Origin: Oscillospiraceae bacterium
Lineage (GTDB): Bacteria > Bacillota > Clostridia > Saccharofermentanales > Saccharofermentanaceae
Assembly (NCBI GenBank): GCA_902789515.1
Contig: CADAOK010000002.1
Span: 1 to 42,157 of the forward strand
Length of the DNA: 42,157 nucleotides
Direction: 5' to 3'
Position 1 is the first letter of the stretch; the number at the start of each line of letters is the position of its first letter. Under the pieces are notes generated by a model that saw nothing but the letters and a program-made list of their open reading frames with translations, was not told the origin of the DNA and did no database searches. The position numbers and the translations under genes were made by a program. Below, in pieces: positions 525 through 11,383 of the stretch.

Positions 525-1942
525 TGGATTTCATAGATATCTTCTGCATTATCCTCTACATGGTAGCTTCTGTGCTCTTCATCATGGGCATCAAGAAGCT
601 CGGTAAGGCTGATACTGCCCGTAAGGGCAACCTGATGTCCTCCATCGGTATGGGCATCGCAGTTATCTCCGTCCTCATCTCGCAGGATGTGTTTGACGGA
701 GGATTCTTCGCTTATCTGATCATCATCCTCGCTATCATCGCAGGATCTGTTATCGGTTTCATCTGGGCCAAGAAGGTCGAGATGACAGGAATGCCCCAGC
801 TCGTTGCACTCTTCAACGGTTTCGGCGGTCTGTCTTCCATGCTCGTTGCCATCTCTCAGTACTGCGCTCTCAAGGGCGGCTCTGATGCGGTAGGCACAGA
901 TGCTTTCACATCTCTGACACTCGGTCTGACGATCCTGATCGGTGCAGTCGCATTCACAGGTTCACTCATCGCATGGGGCAAACTCGCAGGACTTAAGATG
1001 TTCAAGAAGAATATCGTCCTTCCCGGCAAAAACTTCATCAATGCGGGTATTACTTTCGTAGCTGTTCTCGGCATCATCTTCTATATGATCGATCCTGAGG
1101 GCGGTCTGGGCCTGGCAGGCATCCTTATTACAACAATCGCTTCTCTCGTACTCGGTGTCACACTGGTTATCACGATCGGCGGCGGCGACATGCCTGTCAT
1201 CATCTCCTTCCTGAACGCACTCTCCGGTCTCGCAGCTGCTTTCGCAGGCTTCCCTATCGGAAACACGGTGCTCATCGTATCCGGATGTCTCGTAGGTGCT
1301 TCAGGCGTCATCCTTACACTCATCATGTGCAAGGCTATGAACAAGAGCTTTGCTTCACTCCTCTTCAAGACTGTTAAGAAGAAGGCTTCTTCTGCTACAG
1401 GCGAGCATAAGGAACCCAAGGCTCTGTCCGTCGAGGATGCATTCCTTATCCTTGAGGCAGCCAAGAGCGTTGTTATCGTTCCGGGTTACGGAATGGCTGT
1501 TGCCCAGGCTCAGCATGCCGTTAAGGAGCTCTGCGATGTTCTTGAGGAGAACGGCTGCGAAGTCAACTTCGCGATCCACCCTGTTGCAGGACGTATGCCC
1601 GGTCACATGAACGTTCTCCTTGCTGAGGCTAACGTTCCTTACGAGCAGCTCAAGACATCCGACGAGATGAATCCTCAGATGCCCAATGTAGATATCGCTA
1701 TCGTCATCGGTGCTAACGACGTTGTTAACCCTGCGGCTATCAACGACGAGAGCTCACCTATCTACGGCATGCCTATCGTAAATGCTTACGAGGCACGCAC
1801 GGTATTCGTCCTCAAGAGAGGTCAGGGTACAGGTTTCTCCGGTATCGAGAACCCGCTGTTTACCAACGACAACACCGTAATGATCTACGGTGATGCTAAG
1901 CAGACAGTATCACAGCTCGTTGTCGAGTTTGAAAACGATTAA
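524..1942 (+). CDS. pntB: NAD(P) transhydrogenase beta subunit PntB
   Basis: A 472-residue protein with a membrane half (about residues 1-265, eight or nine helices) and a soluble NADP(H)-binding half (about 300-472). The soluble half shows VPGYGMAVAQAQHAV, FAIHPVAGRMPGHMNVLLAE, VIGANDVVNPAA and VFVLKRGQGTGFSGIENPLF, all hallmark NADP-domain segments of PntB. The enzyme uses the proton gradient to reduce NADP+ with NADH. In a fermenting anaerobe this supplies NADPH for biosynthesis. It is the last gene of the operon; a hairpin-rich stretch and a terminator follow. Length is as usual for the family and no key motif is missing. Confidence 0.96.
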   Translation: MDFIDIFCIILYMVASVLFIMGIKKLGKADTARKGNLMSSIGMGIAVISVLISQDVFDGGFFAYLIIILAIIAGSVIGFIWAKKVEMTGMPQLVALFNGFGGLSSMLVAISQYCALKGGSDAVGTDAFTSLTLGLTILIGAVAFTGSLIAWGKLAGLKMFKKNIVLPGKNFINAGITFVAVLGIIFYMIDPEGGLGLAGILITTIASLVLGVTLVITIGGGDMPVIISFLNALSGLAAAFAGFPIGNTVLIVSGCLVGASGVILTLIMCKAMNKSFASLLFKTVKKKASSATGEHKEPKALSVEDAFLILEAAKSVVIVPGYGMAVAQAQHAVKELCDVLEENGCEVNFAIHPVAGRMPGHMNVLLAEANVPYEQLKTSDEMNPQMPNVDIAIVIGANDVVNPAAINDESSPIYGMPIVNAYEARTVFVLKRGQGTGFSGIENPLFTNDNTVMIYGDAKQTVSQLVVEFEND

Positions 1943-1950
1943 AGGCGTTC

Positions 1951-2025
1951 GCACCCCATTTGCTCTTGGCTGCGAACAGGTCCTCGGCGCAAAGCGCCTG
2001 CGGAACTTGCAGAGCAAATGGGTGC
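1951..2025 (+). repeat. Long imperfect inverted repeat (cruciform/hairpin) after pntB
   Basis: GCACCCCATTTGCTCT (1951-1966) is matched about 45 bases later by AGAGCAAATGGGTGC (2011-2025), its reverse complement except for one extra C. Between the arms a second hairpin centres on GGCGC-AAA-GCGCC, flanked by further partial pairing, so the whole block can fold into a single long rod. It lacks a U-run, and a separate terminator follows about 75 bases later. It may be a 3'-UTR structure, a small RNA or a copy of a dispersed palindromic element. No second copy was seen in this window. Confidence 0.6.
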
Positions 2026-2100
2026 TCTCTTAGGAGCATCGCAAACCCTGCTGCTCTTTACAGTAGTTAAGGGGGCTCAATTTGAAGCAGTAAAAAAACA

Positions 2101-2130
2101 AGCCGGGAACTCGGGTTCCCGGCTTTTTAT
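2101..2130. terminator. Bidirectional rho-independent terminator between pntB and the ChW gene
   Basis: Perfect 10-bp stem AGCCGGGAAC / GTTCCCGGCT with a TCGG tetraloop. It is followed by TTTTTATT on the plus strand and preceded by AAAAAAACA, which is a U-run for minus-strand transcripts. It sits between the convergent ends of the pnt operon and the ChW-protein operon and can serve both. Confidence 0.92.
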
Positions 2131-2145
2131 TGTCTGCTGTTATCA

Positions 2146-3666
2146 TCATGGATAATAATTCAAGAAATAATCTGGGTCATTCCAGGTTACAGGGTATGAG
2201 TAACCTGCGCGGCTTATCCTCATGGAGCCATCATCTGACAACCAGGAGCCAATAGCGCCGCCGTTACGATCAGGGAAATTCCTGATGGTCCCATCGTCAT
2301 ATAGATACCCGGTACAAGCATAATGAGTAGGGATGTATCCGTGTGCGAAAAATACTTCAATTGCATATAAATCTATCTCTTTCTGCGGATAATCCAGGGG
2401 AAACAGGAATTCCTTGAATATGTCTGTTTGTTCTTCCGGTACATTTGAATCAACATATCCGTCGAACTCCCAAATCTGACCAATGCAGTTAGCCGGTGGT
2501 AGATAATATGGGTTCACCTTGTAATCTGGGATTTTATAGATATCCGGTATCGGCTCAGCTTCAGCAGTCGGATTAGAAGGATTTTGTATCGTTCCTGTAG
2601 GAACCGGTGCGCTGGTCGGTGCAGGTGTAGGCATAGGTGAATCGGATACCGCTGCATAGCCGGTTACGCTCGTGACTCCATTGATATCACCTGGAACCGA
2701 TTCTCCCTTCTTTACCAAAACTATCTGTATCGCTTCGAGTCTCTTTGACAGACCTGACGTACCGCTTACTTCGCCGTTCTTGGCCCAACCGAGCCACCCG
2801 AAATCTTGCGCATGCACCCTATAGTAAACATCGTAGTAGTTTGCTATATCCCCGGTCAGTTCTATTTGTATCGCTTCAAGTCTGTAAGCTAGACCTTGAG
2901 TTCCGCTCATCTCACCGTTCTGCGACCAAGACGATTCCCAGCCGATGTTTTGTACATGGGTTCTGTATTTGATTCCACCGGAATACTCATTGCCGGAAAG
3001 GTGTATCTCAATACCCTCAAGACGCTTAGATTCACCTACGGTGCCTGATGACTGCCCGTTCGTCTTCCATACGGATTCCCAGCCATAGTCCTGGCGGTGA
3101 ACTCTATAGTTGACTGTTGTTGATGTGCCCTGTCCTCTGGGAACGATCCTGATACGGACTTCCTCAAGTCTCTTGGATTCGCCGGTTGTTCCGGCAAGAG
3201 TACCATCAGAAACAAAACCCTGAGCATCGCCATAATCTTGAATATGAACCGCATATTCAACAGTATAAGCAGCTGCCAGGTCTCCGGTAAGATTCATTTC
3301 GATGCCTTCCAAACGCTTTGCCTGTCCGGAAGTTCCTGCCATCTCACCTGCCGTACGGTAGTCCTGCCAACCAATGTCCTGAACATGCACCCGGTATTCG
3401 AGCGTACCGGACAAACCGGTGTTGTTTTCAAGATAGATGGTGATAGCTTCCACTCTCTTTGACTGTCCTCTGGTGCCGAGTGTTAGTGTACCGGTCGATG
3501 CATCCCATGTGCCCTCTGTGTCACCGTAGTCCTGAACGTGACAAGTTCCTGATAAAGAGATTCCTGTATCGGCGCTAACCAAGATGCTGGCGGTTCCGAT
3601 CAGTAATGATACTGATAATAGAAGAACCATTATCTTGCAGGCTTGTCTCGTGAATAGTTTTCTCAT
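2146..3666 (-). CDS. Secreted ChW-repeat protein with unknown C-terminal domain
   Basis: 506 residues. A signal peptide occupies about residues 1-32 (MRKLF, hydrophobic core, cut near VSADTG). Six ChW-type repeats follow (about 35-320), recognisable by an H-x-Q-[DN]-x-G-[WD] start and a GxxxKRLEAIxI end; the first and third have D where the typical W stands. A proline/threonine-rich linker (about 335-370) leads to a final domain of about 130 residues rich in Tyr, Asp and Pro that I do not recognise. ChW repeats occur on secreted and surface proteins of clostridia and are thought to mediate protein or carbohydrate contacts. The gene lies 39 bases behind the sigma-fusion gene, so the secreted protein is probably co-expressed with that membrane-anchored regulator. 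GAGGTG precedes the ATG. No cell-wall anchor is visible. Confidence 0.85.
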   Translation of the reverse strand: MRKLFTRQACKIMVLLLSVSLLIGTASILVSADTGISLSGTCHVQDYGDTEGTWDASTGTLTLGTRGQSKRVEAITIYLENNTGLSGTLEYRVHVQDIGWQDYRTAGEMAGTSGQAKRLEGIEMNLTGDLAAAYTVEYAVHIQDYGDAQGFVSDGTLAGTTGESKRLEEVRIRIVPRGQGTSTTVNYRVHRQDYGWESVWKTNGQSSGTVGESKRLEGIEIHLSGNEYSGGIKYRTHVQNIGWESSWSQNGEMSGTQGLAYRLEAIQIELTGDIANYYDVYYRVHAQDFGWLGWAKNGEVSGTSGLSKRLEAIQIVLVKKGESVPGDINGVTSVTGYAAVSDSPMPTPAPTSAPVPTGTIQNPSNPTAEAEPIPDIYKIPDYKVNPYYLPPANCIGQIWEFDGYVDSNVPEEQTDIFKEFLFPLDYPQKEIDLYAIEVFFAHGYIPTHYACTGYLYDDGTIRNFPDRNGGAIGSWLSDDGSMRISRAGYSYPVTWNDPDYFLNYYP

Positions 3667-3705
3667 CTTTTCACCTCATTCTGCTCAGATGCCACTTAAC
3701 AAAAA

Positions 3706-5247
3706 TTAAGAACAACGGACATAGAACTCAACAAATTCATCTTTGGCTGGTTCTTCACCAGACAAATACCATCCGGATGTCTGCTCAGTTGACAGATGGA
3801 TCGAGAATATATAACCGGGAACAACATACTCGGCAGGAATCGTGAGAGTATATGTTCCATTATTATTGGTAAGATAATCAGAGATATTGCATTCATATGT
3901 CATAGACTCTTCTTCGACAACTTCTCCATCAACCTCTATGCCGGAAGTATGATTTGCCGTAGTCTGAGCAATACAGATCAAATCGGCATTTTCATCGAAC
4001 ACAGCGAATGTCGGATCTACGCCATCGGCATACCGCATGATCGTGCCCCAATCCAGATCTTCGTCGCATTTAAATGTGATCACAATATCTTCTCCGGCAG
4101 GATAGTTTGGATAAGTAGGCCAGCTATAACCATCTTCATCGGTCCAGAGCTCTAAAGAAACATTGCTTCCAAAATCAAAATCTGTTGCGACAAGATCTCC
4201 ATAATCTGAGGGATAGAATTCGTCCATGTAGTAACTGCCTCCCGAACAGTTGACCTGTGCATAGCCTTCCGGTGGATATAGTATTTCCTGAGCTTCACTT
4301 TCCTCACTCACCGAGGGCTCAGTTATCTCCGATTCTTCGGTCGTAGTCTCGACTATCTCCTCTTCTGTTTCTTCTTTGTCTGCCACGTTGGAATTACTTT
4401 CGCTCAGGAGCTTGATGCCTATCCCTGCTGTGGCAATAACCGCCAGAGAAACAGCACCGACCGCAATCTTTCCACCAACTGTTGAAAAAAAGGATGTCTT
4501 AGCTGTTGCTGCTGCAGAGTGTGCTGCTGACTGTGAAACAGTTTTTGCAGTATTACCAATAGAAAGCGTAAGAGAAGAAAAATCCGGAACAGTAAGTCCG
4601 AGCGCTTCTTCCTTGAAGAATCTTCCCAGGAAGGAGATGCCGATAGCTGCTGCGCCGAGTTTGTCTCCGGTCTTCTTCTCGTATTTCTCAACCCCGGACT
4701 TGATCTTTATACGGGAATTCTGAAGTCGCCTTTTGATAGTGCCTTCCGGACAACCTGTCACATCTGCAATCTCCTTGACGCTCATCTCATTAAAGTAATA
4801 GAAGAGAACTGTCTGATATTGATCTTCGGAAAGAACGTTTTTTATAATCTTGTGAAGCTCTTCTCTCTTTGCCTTCTCTTCGATGAAGTACTCGGGAAGC
4901 GATTCCAGATCATCATCGCCTTCAAGTATCTCTTCGGTCTCGATTGCATCATCATAAGAAATCCCGTCTCTCCTCTTTCTCTGAATATCTATGGACTTAT
5001 ATACAGCGATCTTCTTGATCCATCCGAGGAACTTCTCATTATCTTCAAGCTTGCCGATATCGTTTACGACTGTCAAATAAGTCTCCTGCATTGCATCCTG
5101 TGCATCTTCAGGATTGCCAAGAGTATTAAGACATGTCATGTAGACAAATCTTGATGATCTGTCATAAATCTCGGAGAACGCCTCTTCGTCACCTGACTTA
5201 TACTTTCTTACGAGATCTGCATATTCATAAAACAACTCATTATCCAT
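3706..5247 (-). CDS. ECF-like sigma factor fused to a transmembrane anchor and extracellular domain
   Basis: 513 residues. Residues about 10-95 match sigma-70 region 2 (EDAQDAMQETYLTVV and FLGWIKKIAVYKSID). Residues about 125-185 match region 4 (LSEDQYQTVLFYYFNEMS, VKEIADVTGCPEGTIKRRL), with an intact recognition helix. A linker rich in Ser and Ala leads to one membrane helix (about 258-281), an acidic Glu/Thr stretch, and an ectodomain of about 190 residues with two visible Cys and many aromatic residues, which I do not recognise. The sigma half should be cytoplasmic and the tail outside, so the sigma factor would be tethered until released or would act from the membrane. The chosen ATG (5247) has GGAGGG nine bases ahead; an in-frame ATG at 5265 has only a weak site. 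It overlaps the upstream small ORF by 8 bases. Confidence 0.85.
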   Translation of the reverse strand: MDNELFYEYADLVRKYKSGDEEAFSEIYDRSSRFVYMTCLNTLGNPEDAQDAMQETYLTVVNDIGKLEDNEKFLGWIKKIAVYKSIDIQRKRRDGISYDDAIETEEILEGDDDLESLPEYFIEEKAKREELHKIIKNVLSEDQYQTVLFYYFNEMSVKEIADVTGCPEGTIKRRLQNSRIKIKSGVEKYEKKTGDKLGAAAIGISFLGRFFKEEALGLTVPDFSSLTLSIGNTAKTVSQSAAHSAAATAKTSFFSTVGGKIAVGAVSLAVIATAGIGIKLLSESNSNVADKEETEEEIVETTTEESEITEPSVSEESEAQEILYPPEGYAQVNCSGGSYYMDEFYPSDYGDLVATDFDFGSNVSLELWTDEDGYSWPTYPNYPAGEDIVITFKCDEDLDWGTIMRYADGVDPTFAVFDENADLICIAQTTANHTSGIEVDGEVVEEESMTYECNISDYLTNNNGTYTLTIPAEYVVPGYIFSIHLSTEQTSGWYLSGEEPAKDEFVEFYVRCS

Positions 5248-5386
5248 TTGGTTTTCCCTCCGCATTATTACCTTTGATTATAGTACTTTCGTTTTTGTTT
5301 GTTCTGCCCGGAATCTTGAGATCTTCTGCCAAAGACTGGAAGAATCTGCTTAGAAACGGGATCTTTTCTATTTTGTTTCTTTTCAT
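5240..5386 (-). CDS. Small 48-residue protein coupled to the sigma-fusion gene
   Basis: This short frame starts at ATG 5386 with a strong GGAGG seven bases upstream and ends at 5240, inside the sigma gene start (ATGGATAA overlap). The product is basic: MKRNKIEKIPFLSRFFQSL, then a polar tail rich in Lys and Asn. There is no membrane helix; the N-terminal part could be an amphipathic helix. Position, spacing (44 bases after the membrane-protein gene) and coupling argue for a real gene in the operon. It could be a regulator of the sigma factor, or a leader peptide that sets its translation. Function is unknown. Confidence 0.6.
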   Translation of the reverse strand: MKRNKIEKIPFLSRFFQSLAEDLKIPGRTNKNESTIIKGNNAEGKPNG

Positions 5387-5430
5387 CGTGGACCTCCTGA
5401 ACCTGCAACTTCCGGTTATCATTCAGCTCC

Positions 5431-6267
5431 TTATGAAAGCTGTTCAAGTTCTTTCATGTCTTTTTCGATCTGCCTTCTTGTAACATCCACGTCGACATGA
5501 GCATAGTTCCAGCTTTTTTCCTGCTTTCCCTTAATGCCCTTGCGGCTTGCTGCGATCCTGTTTTCGAGGACATTCTTTCTTTCCTGCTTCTTCTTATCTG
5601 CTTTTGATGTGTCGTTGGATGAAGAACCAAAACCGGAATTACCTGTTGCAACTGCAGGAAGCTTCATTGTCATGAGGATTACAAACACTATGGCTCCGAT
5701 CAGGACACCAATCTTGGATGCTGTCGAAAGGAAAGCAAACCACATGATCAGTGGGACCAGGATGTTCTTAAAGAGTAGTCCTCCAATACCTGCAAGCATG
5801 AATACACTACCAGTCGTTCCCTTAAAGCAGATAAAACAAACGATCAAGCCAAGAATAAGAGCTGCTGTAGCAAACATCATTGGATCTTCTCCAAGCCAAC
5901 GATCGTCATGGCTGTTCATAGCTACGATCTCTATTGCTGTTACGCCTATCAGATCAATAATGGCAAGAACTGCTTTTAACGGGGTTTCCGTAAAGTTGAT
6001 GATGATCGCGAGAACGAATGTGCAAAAGATAAAGGCTACATCAACAAGTCCGCAGACATCACTACTCAGCATATATTCAAACGAATCGTTGAGATGGATC
6101 ATATTCTTCGTTTCCGCACCAAAGAGGACCGGGAACGCATCCGATAACATGGGATACCAGCCTGTCTTGTTGTAGCAAAGGCCTCCCAGAATACCCGTAA
6201 CGATTACCACGATTGCATAAACCGCTACCAAAACCTTAAAGATCCTGCTTACTTTTTTACTAAACAT
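5431..6267 (-). CDS. Polytopic membrane protein of unknown function, first gene of the sigma operon
   Basis: 278 residues with about seven hydrophobic segments (roughly 10-32, 72-94, 98-116, 128-147, 152-170, 173-190 and 183-205), then a cytoplasmic tail of about 75 residues rich in Lys, Arg, Glu and Ser that looks helical (KADKKKQERKNVLENR). I do not recognise a family. It has a strong site (AGGAGG, seven bases ahead of ATG) and an ECF-like promoter about 50-75 bases upstream. Since it leads an operon with a membrane-tethered sigma factor, it may sense a signal or modify the tethered factor; this is inference from position only. Confidence 0.7.
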   Translation of the reverse strand: MFSKKVSRIFKVLVAVYAIVVIVTGILGGLCYNKTGWYPMLSDAFPVLFGAETKNMIHLNDSFEYMLSSDVCGLVDVAFIFCTFVLAIIINFTETPLKAVLAIIDLIGVTAIEIVAMNSHDDRWLGEDPMMFATAALILGLIVCFICFKGTTGSVFMLAGIGGLLFKNILVPLIMWFAFLSTASKIGVLIGAIVFVILMTMKLPAVATGNSGFGSSSNDTSKADKKKQERKNVLENRIAASRKGIKGKQEKSWNYAHVDVDVTRRQIEKDMKELEQLS

Positions 6268-6317
6268 TGTTTTTACCTCCTGAATTATCGGATGCTTTAT
6301 CCGTCTTATACCTAATA

Positions 6318-6343
6318 GTCGGTATGAGAATTCATTCGGTTCA
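6318..6343 (-). promoter_or_regulatory. Candidate ECF-type promoter of the sigma-fusion operon
   Basis: On the minus strand TGAACC (6343-6338) is separated by 16 bases from CGAC (6321-6318), resembling the TGAAAC-N16-CGTA/C pattern of ECF promoters such as those of SigW and SigX in Bacillus. It would start transcription about 40 bases ahead of the membrane-protein ATG at 6267, which fits autoregulation of the operon. No good housekeeping -35/-10 pair was seen in the same gap. Confidence 0.4.
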
Positions 6344-6407
6344 CTGATATTTGAAAAAAGTTGTATAAATTCTCAGAGCAGGGATCCAGCCAGCAAAAAT
6401 GCAAACG

Positions 6408-6435
6408 GAAACAATAAAACCCGGGATTACCCGGG
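6408..6435 (-). terminator. Rho-independent terminator after the GT2 gene
   Basis: Minus-strand hairpin CCCGGG-TAAT-CCCGGG (6435-6420) followed by TTTTATTGTTT, eight bases beyond the GT2 stop at 6443. Confidence 0.85.
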
Positions 6436-6442
6436 CCGTTAC

Positions 6443-7474
6443 TCAGTTGAAGTTATAGAACTTCTGAGCGAGCTTGTATGCGCTCAGGGACAGCAACCTT
6501 CCGCTCTTGCCCGGCAGCGTCATTATGGTGCCGCAGATGCCGAAACGGAATTTGGTATAGAGCATCTTGTCCTTTCCGGAGATATATTCGAGGAGCGCGG
6601 TCTTCTTATCGATCGCCTCGCGGCTTCCGTCGAGGAGCAACAGTACCATGGAAACTGTCGTGATGATCTCGAGATAGCTGTACATATACTGCGCGCGGCG
6701 CTTATTCTGCTTGATTATGTCCTTGTTCGTGATATAGAAATCAAGCATGCGGTAATTGACCGACAACTGCTGGTCAACGCGCTTTACCATTACCGCCTCA
6801 TTAACGGACTGGTCTTCCCTTCCGATGAAGTAATAATAGAAGTTAACGTTCAGATAGTACATACGCTCGACATGAAGGAGCGGCTCAAAGACAAAGATAT
6901 TGTCCACATAGAAAGTGTGCCTCGGCAGCTTCAGCTCCATATCGCGGAGGATCTGGGTCCTGAATATGACCGAATGCATGAGCATGTAATCGCCGGGCTT
7001 GAAGTGAGATGTGATCTCCCAGTCGAACACGAAGTTCTCGGGCATGATGCCTTCAAATGACATTATCTTCTTCTTATCTTCCGCTACACCCAGCTTGTCA
7101 TAGACAAAGTTGGAGATGAGCATGTCGATGGGCTGGTCTTCAGTCGTAAAGTATCTGAGAGTGTCGAGGACCTTGGTAAGACCTTCCTCTCCGACCTTAT
7201 CGTCGCTGTCGACGACCTTGAAATACATACCCGTGGCATTCTCCATGCCGGCATTGACAGCTGCGCCGTGACCGCCGTTGGTCTGATGGATAGCCTTGAT
7301 TATCGTGGGGTATTTGGCAGCATATTCGTCTGCGATCTTCGCGGTATCATCCGTTGAACCGTCGTCAACGATAATGATCTCAATATCCTCACCGCCGGGA
7401 AGAAGTGATTCAACAGCAACGGACATGTATTCCGCGGAATTGTAGCAAGGAATGGCTACGCTCAGGATCTTCAT
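6443..7474 (-). CDS. Family 2 glycosyltransferase
   Basis: 343 residues. The first 110 residues form a GT-A fold: SVAIPCYNSAEYMSVAVESL, IIIVDDGSTDDTAKIADEYA (nucleotide-sugar binding), GGHGAAVNAGMENATGMYFK, and the metal-binding DSDD near residue 95. The C-terminal 200 residues carry no extra domain that I recognise; one hydrophobic stretch near 280 (YLEIITTVSMVLLLL) may touch the membrane. Such enzymes add a sugar to a lipid-linked or surface glycan in the cytoplasm; the substrate cannot be read from the sequence. GGGGG lies eight bases before the ATG. The gene appears to be a single unit, with its own promoter near 7575-7602 and a terminator behind it. Confidence 0.9.
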   Translation of the reverse strand: MKILSVAIPCYNSAEYMSVAVESLLPGGEDIEIIIVDDGSTDDTAKIADEYAAKYPTIIKAIHQTNGGHGAAVNAGMENATGMYFKVVDSDDKVGEEGLTKVLDTLRYFTTEDQPIDMLISNFVYDKLGVAEDKKKIMSFEGIMPENFVFDWEITSHFKPGDYMLMHSVIFRTQILRDMELKLPRHTFYVDNIFVFEPLLHVERMYYLNVNFYYYFIGREDQSVNEAVMVKRVDQQLSVNYRMLDFYITNKDIIKQNKRRAQYMYSYLEIITTVSMVLLLLDGSREAIDKKTALLEYISGKDKMLYTKFRFGICGTIMTLPGKSGRLLSLSAYKLAQKFYNFN

Positions 7475-7715: not shown

Positions 7716-9029
7716 TCAGCTTACGGAATTGACCGTGCCGATGAATATCGGGTTCATTGTCTCCATGTCGACGATCGCATATGCGAACGGTCTGTCACAG
7801 TAGACTTCCTTGTACTGCACTTCTTCGAACGGGGCACAGGCTCCCGCATCGAGCATTACTGCCGTTGCAGCAGCTGCCTTGGTTCCGTTTCTGTCAACTT
7901 CAATGAATGTCTTGTGAAGTACCTTGGAGATGTAAAGACCGCCATCTGATGTGATTCCGGAGAAATCCGCCTCGCCCTCAATGAAAGGTAATTCAACGCC
8001 CATCTCCATAAGAATGTCATTCATCTCGACCTCATATTCGGATTCAAACTCGGGAAGCAATGTATAGACGTCATACTCATATGTCATGCTGTCTACGAAT
8101 TCAAGATAATCGTCACCTGTGAAGTCACCGATGAACTCGTTTGCGCTGATGCTGTCGTCTGTCGGCAGGATGGCGATAAAGGCATACTGTCCGCCTTCGT
8201 AATACTTCATAAATCCGGTTGCCTTGTCCGTCTCGAAATACGCACTCTCCGTGCTGCTCAGGAAGGTAGCATCCTGTGTCTTGCCTGAGACAAGGTTGAA
8301 CTTGCCGTCAGACACCTGATAATCCTCATATTGTTCGGCCCACTCACCCTCAAAAGCGATGGCATTAACCAGGACTGCCGCTGTGGTGGGGTTGAGATTC
8401 CCGATGATCTCATCGATCATACCGTCAGTATTGTCAGAGACCCATTCGTTAATCTCGTCAACGGTGCTGTCATCAAAAGCTCCTGCCTTGATCTCAGCAT
8501 TGAATGTATCCTCGACATAATCAATGTAATCACTGCTCACCTTATCCCCGAGGATACTTGAATTGTTCCAGATTGCGTTAGCACAGGAGAATTCGACTTT
8601 GTCGGAATCGTTGATCTTGTCCATCATATCTGAAGCAAATGCCTGCTGCTCAAGCGGATCGCCGTCTGAAGTGAACAGGCCGTTTATCTGGTCCAGGGTA
8701 TCGCCGTTGGCTCCGGCTGCGGCAAGATCCATGGCAAACATTATAGATGCCGGAGAGATCATGATATTGGTATCTCCGTTATCCTTCGAAGCCGTCGTTG
8801 CCATGAGATCAAACGCATACTTGTTATAGTCTTTGCTGTAATCATCCTCGTCGTAGTCCGTATCTCTGACTTCGTCGTAGTCAAAAGCGGCCTCTGCCTT
8901 GGGATCATCCTCGAGCTTGACCTTCCCGCCCTTCTTTCCGGATGAGCCGGAAGAACTGCATCCCGCAAAAGAGAGGAGCATGGTACATGCAAGAACACCT
9001 GTTAATAATCTTTTGTGCGTATCTTTCAT
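7716..9029 (-). CDS. Serpin (serine/cysteine protease inhibitor), lipoprotein
   Basis: 437 residues. A lipoprotein signal peptide ends in LLSFAGC (Cys24), followed by a Ser/Gly linker. The serpin fold runs from about residue 65 to the end: NIMISPASIMFAMDLAAAGA (helix B region), VLVNAIAFEGEWAEQ, and the late signature DRPFAYAIVDMETMNPIFIGTV. The reactive-loop hinge GTKAAAATAVML is intact and alanine-rich, as needed for loop insertion, so an inhibitory serpin is likely. By standard hinge counting P1-P1' would be Gly-Ala (LDAG/ACAPF), pointing to a target that accepts small residues. P17, usually Glu, appears to be Arg. Being lipid-anchored outside the cell it could guard against host or neighbour proteases. 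The ATG at 9029 has GGAGG nine bases ahead; a TTG at 9038 is too close to that site. Confidence 0.92.
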   Translation of the reverse strand: MKDTHKRLLTGVLACTMLLSFAGCSSSGSSGKKGGKVKLEDDPKAEAAFDYDEVRDTDYDEDDYSKDYNKYAFDLMATTASKDNGDTNIMISPASIMFAMDLAAAGANGDTLDQINGLFTSDGDPLEQQAFASDMMDKINDSDKVEFSCANAIWNNSSILGDKVSSDYIDYVEDTFNAEIKAGAFDDSTVDEINEWVSDNTDGMIDEIIGNLNPTTAAVLVNAIAFEGEWAEQYEDYQVSDGKFNLVSGKTQDATFLSSTESAYFETDKATGFMKYYEGGQYAFIAILPTDDSISANEFIGDFTGDDYLEFVDSMTYEYDVYTLLPEFESEYEVEMNDILMEMGVELPFIEGEADFSGITSDGGLYISKVLHKTFIEVDRNGTKAAAATAVMLDAGACAPFEEVQYKEVYCDRPFAYAIVDMETMNPIFIGTVNSVS

Positions 9030-9061
9030 TTTGAACAACCTCCATGTTGGATTCTACTATA

Positions 9062-9972: not shown

Positions 9973-10824
9973 TTAATACTCGGAGATGAATTCCCTGAGG
10001 CTCTCCTCCGGTACGGGTTTGTCAAACACGATCAGATATGTCTTGCCGTTATTGGCAAAAGAAGCTGCGTTGTATACCGCGCCGGCATCGGGCATATTGT
10101 TGAACAGTGCGTAGTTAACGCCATTGTCAGTCGTTCCGTTCAAGATAATGGTATTCTCATCCAATACGTCGTCTTTGTACATCTCGGGAAGATCAACGCC
10201 TTCATCCGCCATATAGATCACACAGTTATTGCCGTCATTGTTGAACGTATATATCTGGACTCCGTTCTCTTCGGACTGGGCAACCATCGAGTAATCGGTT
10301 GGCATCAGGGCATAGATATCCGCACCGGCAGTCTCTTCAACGCCTTCGCCGGGATCCTTGCCCTGCGATGTTGTCGTCTCCTCGCTGTCAGAATCTAAGT
10401 CAAAAGCTGCTTCATCGGCAGCTTCATCTATAAATCCGTCACCACCGGCATAATATTCCGGCGCACTGTCGCCGTCAGTGAAAGTCTTGCTCACAATGTC
10501 TGCGGCACCGTCCGCTGCTTCAGTCTCGGCAGCCTCCGTGCTGACCTTGTCAGACTTGGCGGTCTTGGGAATATCGGGATTGTTGCTGATAAACAGGACC
10601 ACGATGCCGCCCACTATCAGAACGGATGCGGCAATAGAGATTATCGCGGCTATCGGAACCGGTTTCTTCTTACGGGCGACCGGCATGGGCGTGACATCAG
10701 CCTTCGCGCCGCCGTCCGCCTTCTGCTCCTCGATTGCCTTGGAGACGTTCGCAAGCACACGGGCCTTCATCTCGTCCGTGACTTCGATATGACTCATGTA
10801 CTCATTGTACTTATTCAAAGTCAT
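9973..10824 (-). CDS. Membrane-anchored anti-sigma-type protein paired with the ECF sigma factor
   Basis: 283 residues. A cytoplasmic N-terminal segment (MTLNKYNEYMSHIEV, then a helical stretch to about 45) is followed by a basic patch ARKKKP, a single membrane helix (about 55-80), an acidic low-complexity linker rich in Glu, Ala, Asp and Thr (85-165), and an outer domain of about 115 residues. It overlaps the sigma gene by 14 bases, and its Shine-Dalgarno (AAGGAGG) lies within the last sigma codons, so translation is coupled. This layout fits a single-pass anti-sigma factor that holds its partner at the membrane. No HCC zinc motif is present, so it is not a ZAS-type anti-sigma factor. The outer domain may resemble a DUF4367-type domain; I am not sure. 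Confidence 0.7.
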   Translation of the reverse strand: MTLNKYNEYMSHIEVTDEMKARVLANVSKAIEEQKADGGAKADVTPMPVARKKKPVPIAAIISIAASVLIVGGIVVLFISNNPDIPKTAKSDKVSTEAAETEAADGAADIVSKTFTDGDSAPEYYAGGDGFIDEAADEAAFDLDSDSEETTTSQGKDPGEGVEETAGADIYALMPTDYSMVAQSEENGVQIYTFNNDGNNCVIYMADEGVDLPEMYKDDVLDENTIILNGTTDNGVNYALFNNMPDAGAVYNAASFANNGKTYLIVFDKPVPEESLREFISEY

Positions 10825-11383
10825 TTGCCTCCTTTATGGTCGCTTCCTTGCGGCCGAGGATGTCAGCGATCTCAGCTGTCTTGTATCCTTCCTGATAGAA
10901 CAGGTGGATGACCTCTCGCTGGTTATCGGGAAGTTTCTTTACCGCTTCCCATACGAAAGACAGGTCGTCATCCTCTTCTTCCGGCGCCGCGCCTGCGATC
11001 TCCTCGTTAAGTTCTTCCGAGGTGCGCACGCGGTTGTATTCGATGCGGTTCTTGGCAAGGTTTGCCGCCACCGTGAGAAGCCATGCCTTGCGGTGCTTCT
11101 CGTTCTCGAAAACGGGCTTTGCCGTGACAAACTTGATCAGGGTCTCCTGCAGGATGTCCTCGGCATCTTCCATGTTGTGCAGATAAGAATAGGCGAGCCT
11201 CAATATGGCGTTTCCGAGTTGATCCATTATCTCTACGGTCTCGCGCTCGATCCGTTCGCTCTCGGTCTCGGCGCCCGCATCAGCTCCGGTAAACTGCCCT
11301 GACCCGGCATCCGCGAAAAGCACTCTTACCAGCCTTACGGCAGTAAGGATGAACCGCGGAAAGATTGCCAGCGCTCCGGTCAT
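10811..11383 (-). CDS. ECF-type RNA polymerase sigma factor with shortened C-terminus
   Basis: 190 residues. An N-terminal extension of about 45 residues with a hydrophobic start (MTGALAIFPRFILTAVRLV) precedes sigma region 2 (about 60-120: LRLAYSYLHNMEDAEDILQE, RKAWLLTVAANLAKN). Region 4 (about 145-185) shows LPDNQREVIHLFYQEGYKTA and EIADILGRKEATIK. The protein then stops after EANDFE, where the family normally has about ten more residues of recognition helix (the SRLxRGRxxL pattern). GGGAGG lies five bases before the ATG; a perfect minus-strand TATAAT at 11460-11455 may be the -10 box. It should direct RNA polymerase to a stress or surface regulon under control of the downstream anti-sigma gene, if the shortened region 4 still binds DNA. 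Confidence 0.85.
   Translation of the reverse strand: MTGALAIFPRFILTAVRLVRVLFADAGSGQFTGADAGAETESERIERETVEIMDQLGNAILRLAYSYLHNMEDAEDILQETLIKFVTAKPVFENEKHRKAWLLTVAANLAKNRIEYNRVRTSEELNEEIAGAAPEEEDDDLSFVWEAVKKLPDNQREVIHLFYQEGYKTAEIADILGRKEATIKEANDFE

Follow-up and report, generated by a model that had tools for sequence, protein, structure and literature searches.

A membrane-anchored ECF sigma factor family of Clostridia with a conserved juxtamembrane linker and a microprotein that carries the same motif

The fused sigma gene and its inserted cassette

The window, which is the whole stretch of 42,157 nucleotides analysed here, carries on its minus strand a gene for a fused ECF sigma factor of 513 aa (3706..5247). 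An alternative upstream start at 5265 gives an uninterrupted frame of 519 aa (3706-5265, minus strand), and residues of the fused sigma are numbered throughout according to this longer form. The better start is Met7, at 5247, the end coordinate given in the original prediction: it is preceded by a GGAGG at a distance of about 9 nt, and relatives open with MDNDLFENYAEL.

Two domains of the sigma factor score above their curated Pfam cut-offs: region 2 (residues 34-99; 4969..5166, minus strand; PF04542, Sigma70_r2, 35.2 bits against a cut-off of 24) and region 4 (residues 144-187; 4705..4836, minus strand; PF08281, Sigma70_r4_2, 38.2 bits against 25.7). The general ECF model of NCBIfam, TIGR02937, is also above its cut-off, and the protein, with regions 2 and 4 and without regions 1 and 3, is an ECF sigma factor (group 4 of the sigma70 family). 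Its predicted sigma fold resembles those of SigW, SigK, and CnrH, and D57 and Q60 of region 2 are invariant in a comparison that included generic ECFs. After region 4 and a cytoplasmic linker, the chain continues through a transmembrane helix (residues 263-285; 4411..4479, minus strand), the sole segment over the hydropathy threshold, into an acidic stalk whose sequence is rich in Thr and Glu (residues 286-340; 4246..4410, minus strand) and an ectodomain of about 180 aa (residues 341-519; 3709..4245, minus strand). The original prediction, made from the sequence alone, that complete regions 2 and 4 and an outer domain lie in one chain joined by a membrane helix, so that sigma factor and sensor are merged, is thus borne out by the architecture. 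A frameshift in the read, named there as something that would overturn it, or a misassembly, is ruled out, since the same 519-aa frame is found at full length and 98% identity in a second genome of the genus (G072:C38), and about 135 genes of this architecture, paralogs included, are spread over the genus. The two sigma genes differ by 17 codon-level changes, of which 7 are synonymous and 10 nonsynonymous.

A domain search of the ectodomain, suggested with the original prediction, gave no Pfam match, but it has homologues without a sigma domain in genomes G074, G023, G063, and G086. These are free lipoproteins, marked by a lipobox-like signal and bearing a stalk rich in Thr, and they support an extracytoplasmic location of the ectodomain independently of hydropathy. 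Comparison with the PDB returned only matches to signal peptides or low-complexity sequence and chance matches.

Three further genes accompany the sigma gene, all on the minus strand. A polytopic membrane protein with about six transmembrane segments (TMP; 5431..6267) is a recurrent neighbour of fused sigmas; a microprotein gene, which was absent from the original prediction, lies between it and the sigma gene; and a secreted protein with six ChW repeats (2146..3666; PF07538, E 6.6e-89) and a signal-peptide-like N-terminus starts 39 nt downstream of the sigma gene. The four genes make up an inserted cassette. In genome G006, pntB and the glycosyltransferase gene, which flank the cassette in the window, are direct neighbours about 157 nt apart, so that the window carries a 4.5-kb insertion (1939..6446) relative to that empty site. 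In G102, G066, and G026, too, DNA matches show parts of the two flanks sharing a contig, close together in the first two genomes. The block at about 2100-6430 is roughly 97-100% identical to G072, except for a tract inside the ChW gene, whereas identity is 79-94% in the DNA left of the block, which includes pntB; correspondingly, dS between the window and G072 is 0.66 for pntB and 0.02 for the sigma gene.

The membrane protein occurs beside fused sigmas in the order sigma-TMP-ChW in G006:C11 and G072:C26 and TMP-sigma in G080:C6, and in the same gene cluster as a fused sigma in G024:C44; the stretch read around the TMP of G063:C64 contains no fused sigma. The suggestion that the membrane protein and the ChW protein could be partners of the sigma factor gains support from this recurrence and from the movement of the three genes as one cassette. 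Transfer of the cassette as a unit suggests that the signalling module and its surface-protein output travel together.

Several minor features of the surroundings were also observed. The ChW tract at about 2850-3600 is only 80-95% identical to G072, as if swapped with another ChW paralog. Palindromic repeats resembling GTCCTC..GCGC..GCGGAA lie at the left edge of the cassette, at the empty site of G006, and in G072, where a transposase-like frame starts right after the cassette (end of L124). Two genes from the cassette is a serpin-family protein (7716-9038, minus strand; PF00079, E 3e-78) with a lipoprotein-like N-terminus, and about 5 kb from the fused sigma (9973-11383, minus strand) a conventional ECF sigma gene (10811-11383) overlaps one for a single-TM anti-sigma-like protein (9973-10824), which is the ordinary two-protein arrangement.

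A clade-specific family with many paralogs

A profile of sigma, linker, and transmembrane segment was run against 85 genomes of the genus (E <= 1e-25). The search gave 141 matches in 57 genomes, six of which are ordinary ECFs of 192-194 aa. Fused copies number about 135, a few of them truncated, in 54 of the 85 genomes, with up to eight per genome as read from the match table. The window's own genome, which is 75% complete, encodes five region-2 proteins: three are fused, one is a conventional ECF, and the remaining one, the strongest match, with a 421-aa frame, is taken for the housekeeping sigma. When the search was extended to 299 genomes of the phylum, almost every match beyond the genus ended at the sigma domain, in frames of 180-280 aa; only one, in G354, spanned the full profile, and partial matches occurred in two other long or membrane-bearing frames. 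The named contigs with the fused architecture are mostly from metagenome-assembled genomes of rumen and gut Clostridia.

In the tree of sigma domains, the 23 sampled members of the clade fall on one side of a branch with support 96/83, and the window sigma lies inside a subset of 10 rows with support 100/98. Other proteins with a sigma-TM-ectodomain order were found in Ruminococcus albus, Erysipelotrichales, and Poribacteria; the TM-fused sigmas of R. albus, Erysipelotrichales, and others are placed outside this clade. The members share both the grouping of their sigma domains and the linker motif, and the window protein has both. The fused sigmas of this type are a clade-specific family with many paralogs.

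The ectodomains vary widely among the members, which carry DUF6273, a DUF5640/lipocalin-like domain, RHS repeats, or no known domain. The pairs L019/L020 and L018/L021 were divergent enough for selection to be measured. In both, dN/dS is about 0.04-0.06 in the sigma part, and in the ectodomain it is about 0.39 for the first pair and 0.25 for the second. An RsiV-like ectodomain guessed by eye in L009/L011 was dropped, as it has no Pfam match. Two members, L006:214-2070 and L133:4279-6249, have an extra N-terminal zinc ribbon before the sigma domain (by Pfam in L006 and by eye in L133). At 6061-16919 of L129 (G030:C14), three fused sigma genes lie within 11 kb, spaced by secreted proteins, a lipoprotein, and an apparent toxin-antitoxin pair.

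The linker motif and the microprotein

The juxtamembrane cytoplasmic linker (residues 191-262; 4480..4695, minus strand) is conserved and contains a predicted helix. Its core motif, ISFLGRFFKEEALGLTVPD (residues 210-228; about 4582-4638, minus strand), corresponds to the conserved motif PFLxRFFxxxAxxLxIP, and the wider consensus reads Y-E-x-x-N-x-x-K-L ... P-F-L-x-x-L/F-F-x-x-E-A-x-x-V/L-x-x-P. Across 43 family members, residues 191-230 come close to region 2 in conservation: the mean information is 2.48 for the linker, 2.68 for region 2, 2.14 for the connector between regions 2 and 4, and 0.69 for the start of the ectodomain. A Pfam search found no anti-sigma domain in the linker, and residues 191-262 contain no Cys. 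The stretch that follows the motif is Ala-rich and of low complexity.

AlphaFold predicts a helix at residues 210-222 with a pLDDT of about 86. The model of the construct with the linker gives TM-scores, by target, of about 0.57-0.64 against SigW:RsiW, RpoE:NepR, SigK, and CnrH, and about 0.33-0.44 against holoenzyme forms. A control model without the linker is equally compact and reaches 0.60-0.68 against the same anti-sigma-bound structures, so that this resemblance says nothing about the linker, and compactness as proof of self-inhibition was dropped because the truncated control is arranged alike. Confidence in region 4 is slightly higher with the linker present than in the truncated model, which weakly favours a predicted contact of the linker with the sigma.

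The same motif is encoded on its own immediately upstream of the sigma gene. The microprotein, MKRNKIEKIPFLSRFFQSLAEDLKIPGRTNKNESTIIKGNNAEGKPNG (48 aa; 5240..5386, minus strand), has an AGGAGG ribosome site and belongs to a conserved family; its stop overlaps the sigma start (ATGGATAA), and it reads MKRNKIEKIPFLSRFFQSLAEDLKIPG..., which is the linker motif by itself. In an alignment of seven microproteins, the P, F, L, F, F, A, and P of the motif are invariant. When a profile was built from microproteins alone, with no linker sequence included, it matched the linkers of long fused sigmas with E values from 2e-6 to 9e-3, besides 19 free microproteins in the genus. Sixteen of the 19 are followed within 0.8 kb by a fused sigma on their own strand. 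As for the others, that of G024:C44 is separated by two lipoprotein genes from a fused sigma about 2 kb downstream of it, that of G080:C34 is 3.8 kb upstream of one, and an orphan (G019:C13:71351-71422, L181) has no fused sigma nearby. Many fused sigmas have no detectable microprotein.

Pooled over the motif codons of the microproteins, pS is 0.82 and pN is 0.22; variation is thus mainly synonymous, and the microprotein is very likely selected as a protein. Searches of Pfam, NCBIfam, and the PDB gave no credible family for it, the few single-member Pfam matches (best E 0.0014) being to eukaryotic or otherwise unrelated domains. Microproteins fit their own linkers no better than those of other sigmas (permutation p 0.20, 8 pairs).

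Proposed control of the anchored sigma and its place among known systems

We consider it somewhat probable, judging from the sequences compared, that the protein is a membrane-tethered one-component ECF sigma receptor that is freed by proteolysis or conformational change and has the motif as its regulatory element. The ectodomain would face outward and sense a signal or a partner. At rest, tethering and the amphipathic PFLxRFF linker helix would together keep the sigma off RNA polymerase, with the helix replacing the missing anti-sigma domain. Upon a signal, cleavage by a site-1 protease and then by a site-2 (RseP-like) protease, or else a conformational change, would free the sigma, whose regulon would take in the sigma operon itself as well as the ChW surface protein. 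Successive site-1 and site-2 cleavage would be the most likely route of release by analogy with the published case of IutY (PMC8999054), and a site-2 protease homologue is encoded in the window's own genome. These steps from signal to transcription are what we infer from the anatomy, conservation, and linkage described above. An autoregulatory ECF promoter was sought with a simple regular expression in the upstream regions of about 45 genes, and no site came up consistently.

The microprotein would have a role in this control too. Made in step with the sigma, it would compete with the linker for a sigma surface, and would either restrain the released sigma or displace the linker. It is possible, though we give it less credence than the tethered receptor itself, that one short peptide element controls the sigma twice, in cis as the membrane linker and in trans as a co-translated microprotein of 40-60 aa acting on the same surface. 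If true, sigma factors would be controlled without an anti-sigma protein across many paralogs with interchangeable ectodomains.

Other explanations bear on how the sigma is released, on what the motif does, and on whether the sigma domain acts at all. The sigma could be active while still tethered, in the manner of ToxR or CadC, with a shift of the ectodomain causing the linker to release the sigma domains for transcription at the membrane without cleavage. A single transmembrane helix with a conserved juxtamembrane linker suits such a conformational relay, and in ECF41 and ECF238 sigma factors a C-terminal extension of the sigma itself exerts control (PMC8999054); however, the tethered sigma would have to engage the large core enzyme, and IutY, the published TM-fused sigma whose mechanism has been worked out, is set free through Prc and RseP (PMC8999054), so that we regard transcription from the membrane as unlikely. 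The linker could alternatively lie along the membrane as a helix or dock a protease. Rather than a sigma-binding element, the motif that it shares with the microprotein would then be an amphipathic membrane helix, or else a tag recognised by a protease or an adaptor, and the microprotein would compete for that factor. The motif is indeed amphipathic and near the membrane, it exists free of any sigma, and it is followed by the Ala-rich region, but the confident linker helix (pLDDT of about 86) and the gain in region 4 confidence weakly favour contact with the sigma, and we judge this function of the motif rather improbable as well. It is highly improbable that the protein acts only as a surface receptor or adhesin, anchored by a decoy or degenerate sigma domain, given that regions 2 and 4 are complete and above curated cut-offs, that D57 and Q60 are invariant, and that dN/dS in the sigma part is so low (about 0.04-0.06).

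The merger of sigma and sensor is not unique to the window, as TM-fused ECFs are already known. Published fused sigma factors include ECF52 (SCO4117 of Streptomyces), ECF48 and ECF53, and IutY (PMC8999054, PMC5826349), from whose published descriptions the window protein is set apart here. Like it, ECF52, ECF48, and ECF53 have an ECF sigma, a transmembrane segment, and an extracytoplasmic part in one chain, and proteolytic release has been proposed for them (PMC8999054, PMC5826349). Between their sigma and the membrane sits a zinc-finger (ZAS) anti-sigma domain; the window protein has no Pfam zinc finger, and its linker holds neither a Cys nor any Pfam domain, and it is the window family that has a microprotein partner. 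ECF52, reported from Actinobacteria only (PMC5826349), has a proline-rich stalk and a carbohydrate-binding module; the stalk of the window protein is rich in Thr and Glu and not in proline, and a Pfam search gave no carbohydrate-binding match. IutY (ECF243, Pseudomonas putida; PMC8999054) is likewise a sigma fused to a membrane-spanning regulator, but the fused part is the whole membrane-bound, FecR-type anti-sigma of a cell-surface signalling system, and the window protein has no such Pfam match outside regions 2 and 4. In RsgI/SigI of Clostridium thermocellum and in RsiV/SigV, an extracellular sensing domain, a single transmembrane segment, and intramembrane cleavage are found, with nine RsgI paralogs in one C. 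thermocellum genome (PMC12203970, PMC4183432); there a separate anti-sigma protein bears the sensor, and in the window protein it is part of the sigma itself.

A literature search covering mainly papers outside subscription found no membrane-anchored sigma of the window's type in Clostridia. Relative to the known TM-fused ECFs, the family is set apart by the lack of a recognisable anti-sigma domain, the linker motif, its microprotein twin, and the scale of paralogy with exchanged ectodomains. If the tethered-receptor reading is right, sigma factors themselves serve as direct surface receptors in these gut and rumen Clostridia, in parallel to two-component systems, with up to eight such receptor genes per genome and widely different ectodomains. 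The microprotein twin would offer a simple handle on the silencing of a membrane-bound sigma, as one short motif that can be mutated in cis or in trans.

The group ECF262, whose type is from R. albus and which is listed with a regulatory extension but no assigned mechanism (PMC8999054), was approached through the R. albus protein L052 (567 aa), from Bacillota like the ECF262 type, which also has the sigma-TM-ectodomain order of the window protein. The linker profile does not match L052, which the tree of sigma domains places outside the PFLxRFF clade. In three other Clostridia proteins of this order (L204, L041, and L050), region 4 is followed by a short hydrophobic motif that loosely resembles the one in the linker, for example VPALPLLLWLF in L204. 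The match of the linker profile to this motif is not significant in the three proteins, and their likeness hints that the linker element may predate the PFLxRFF clade.
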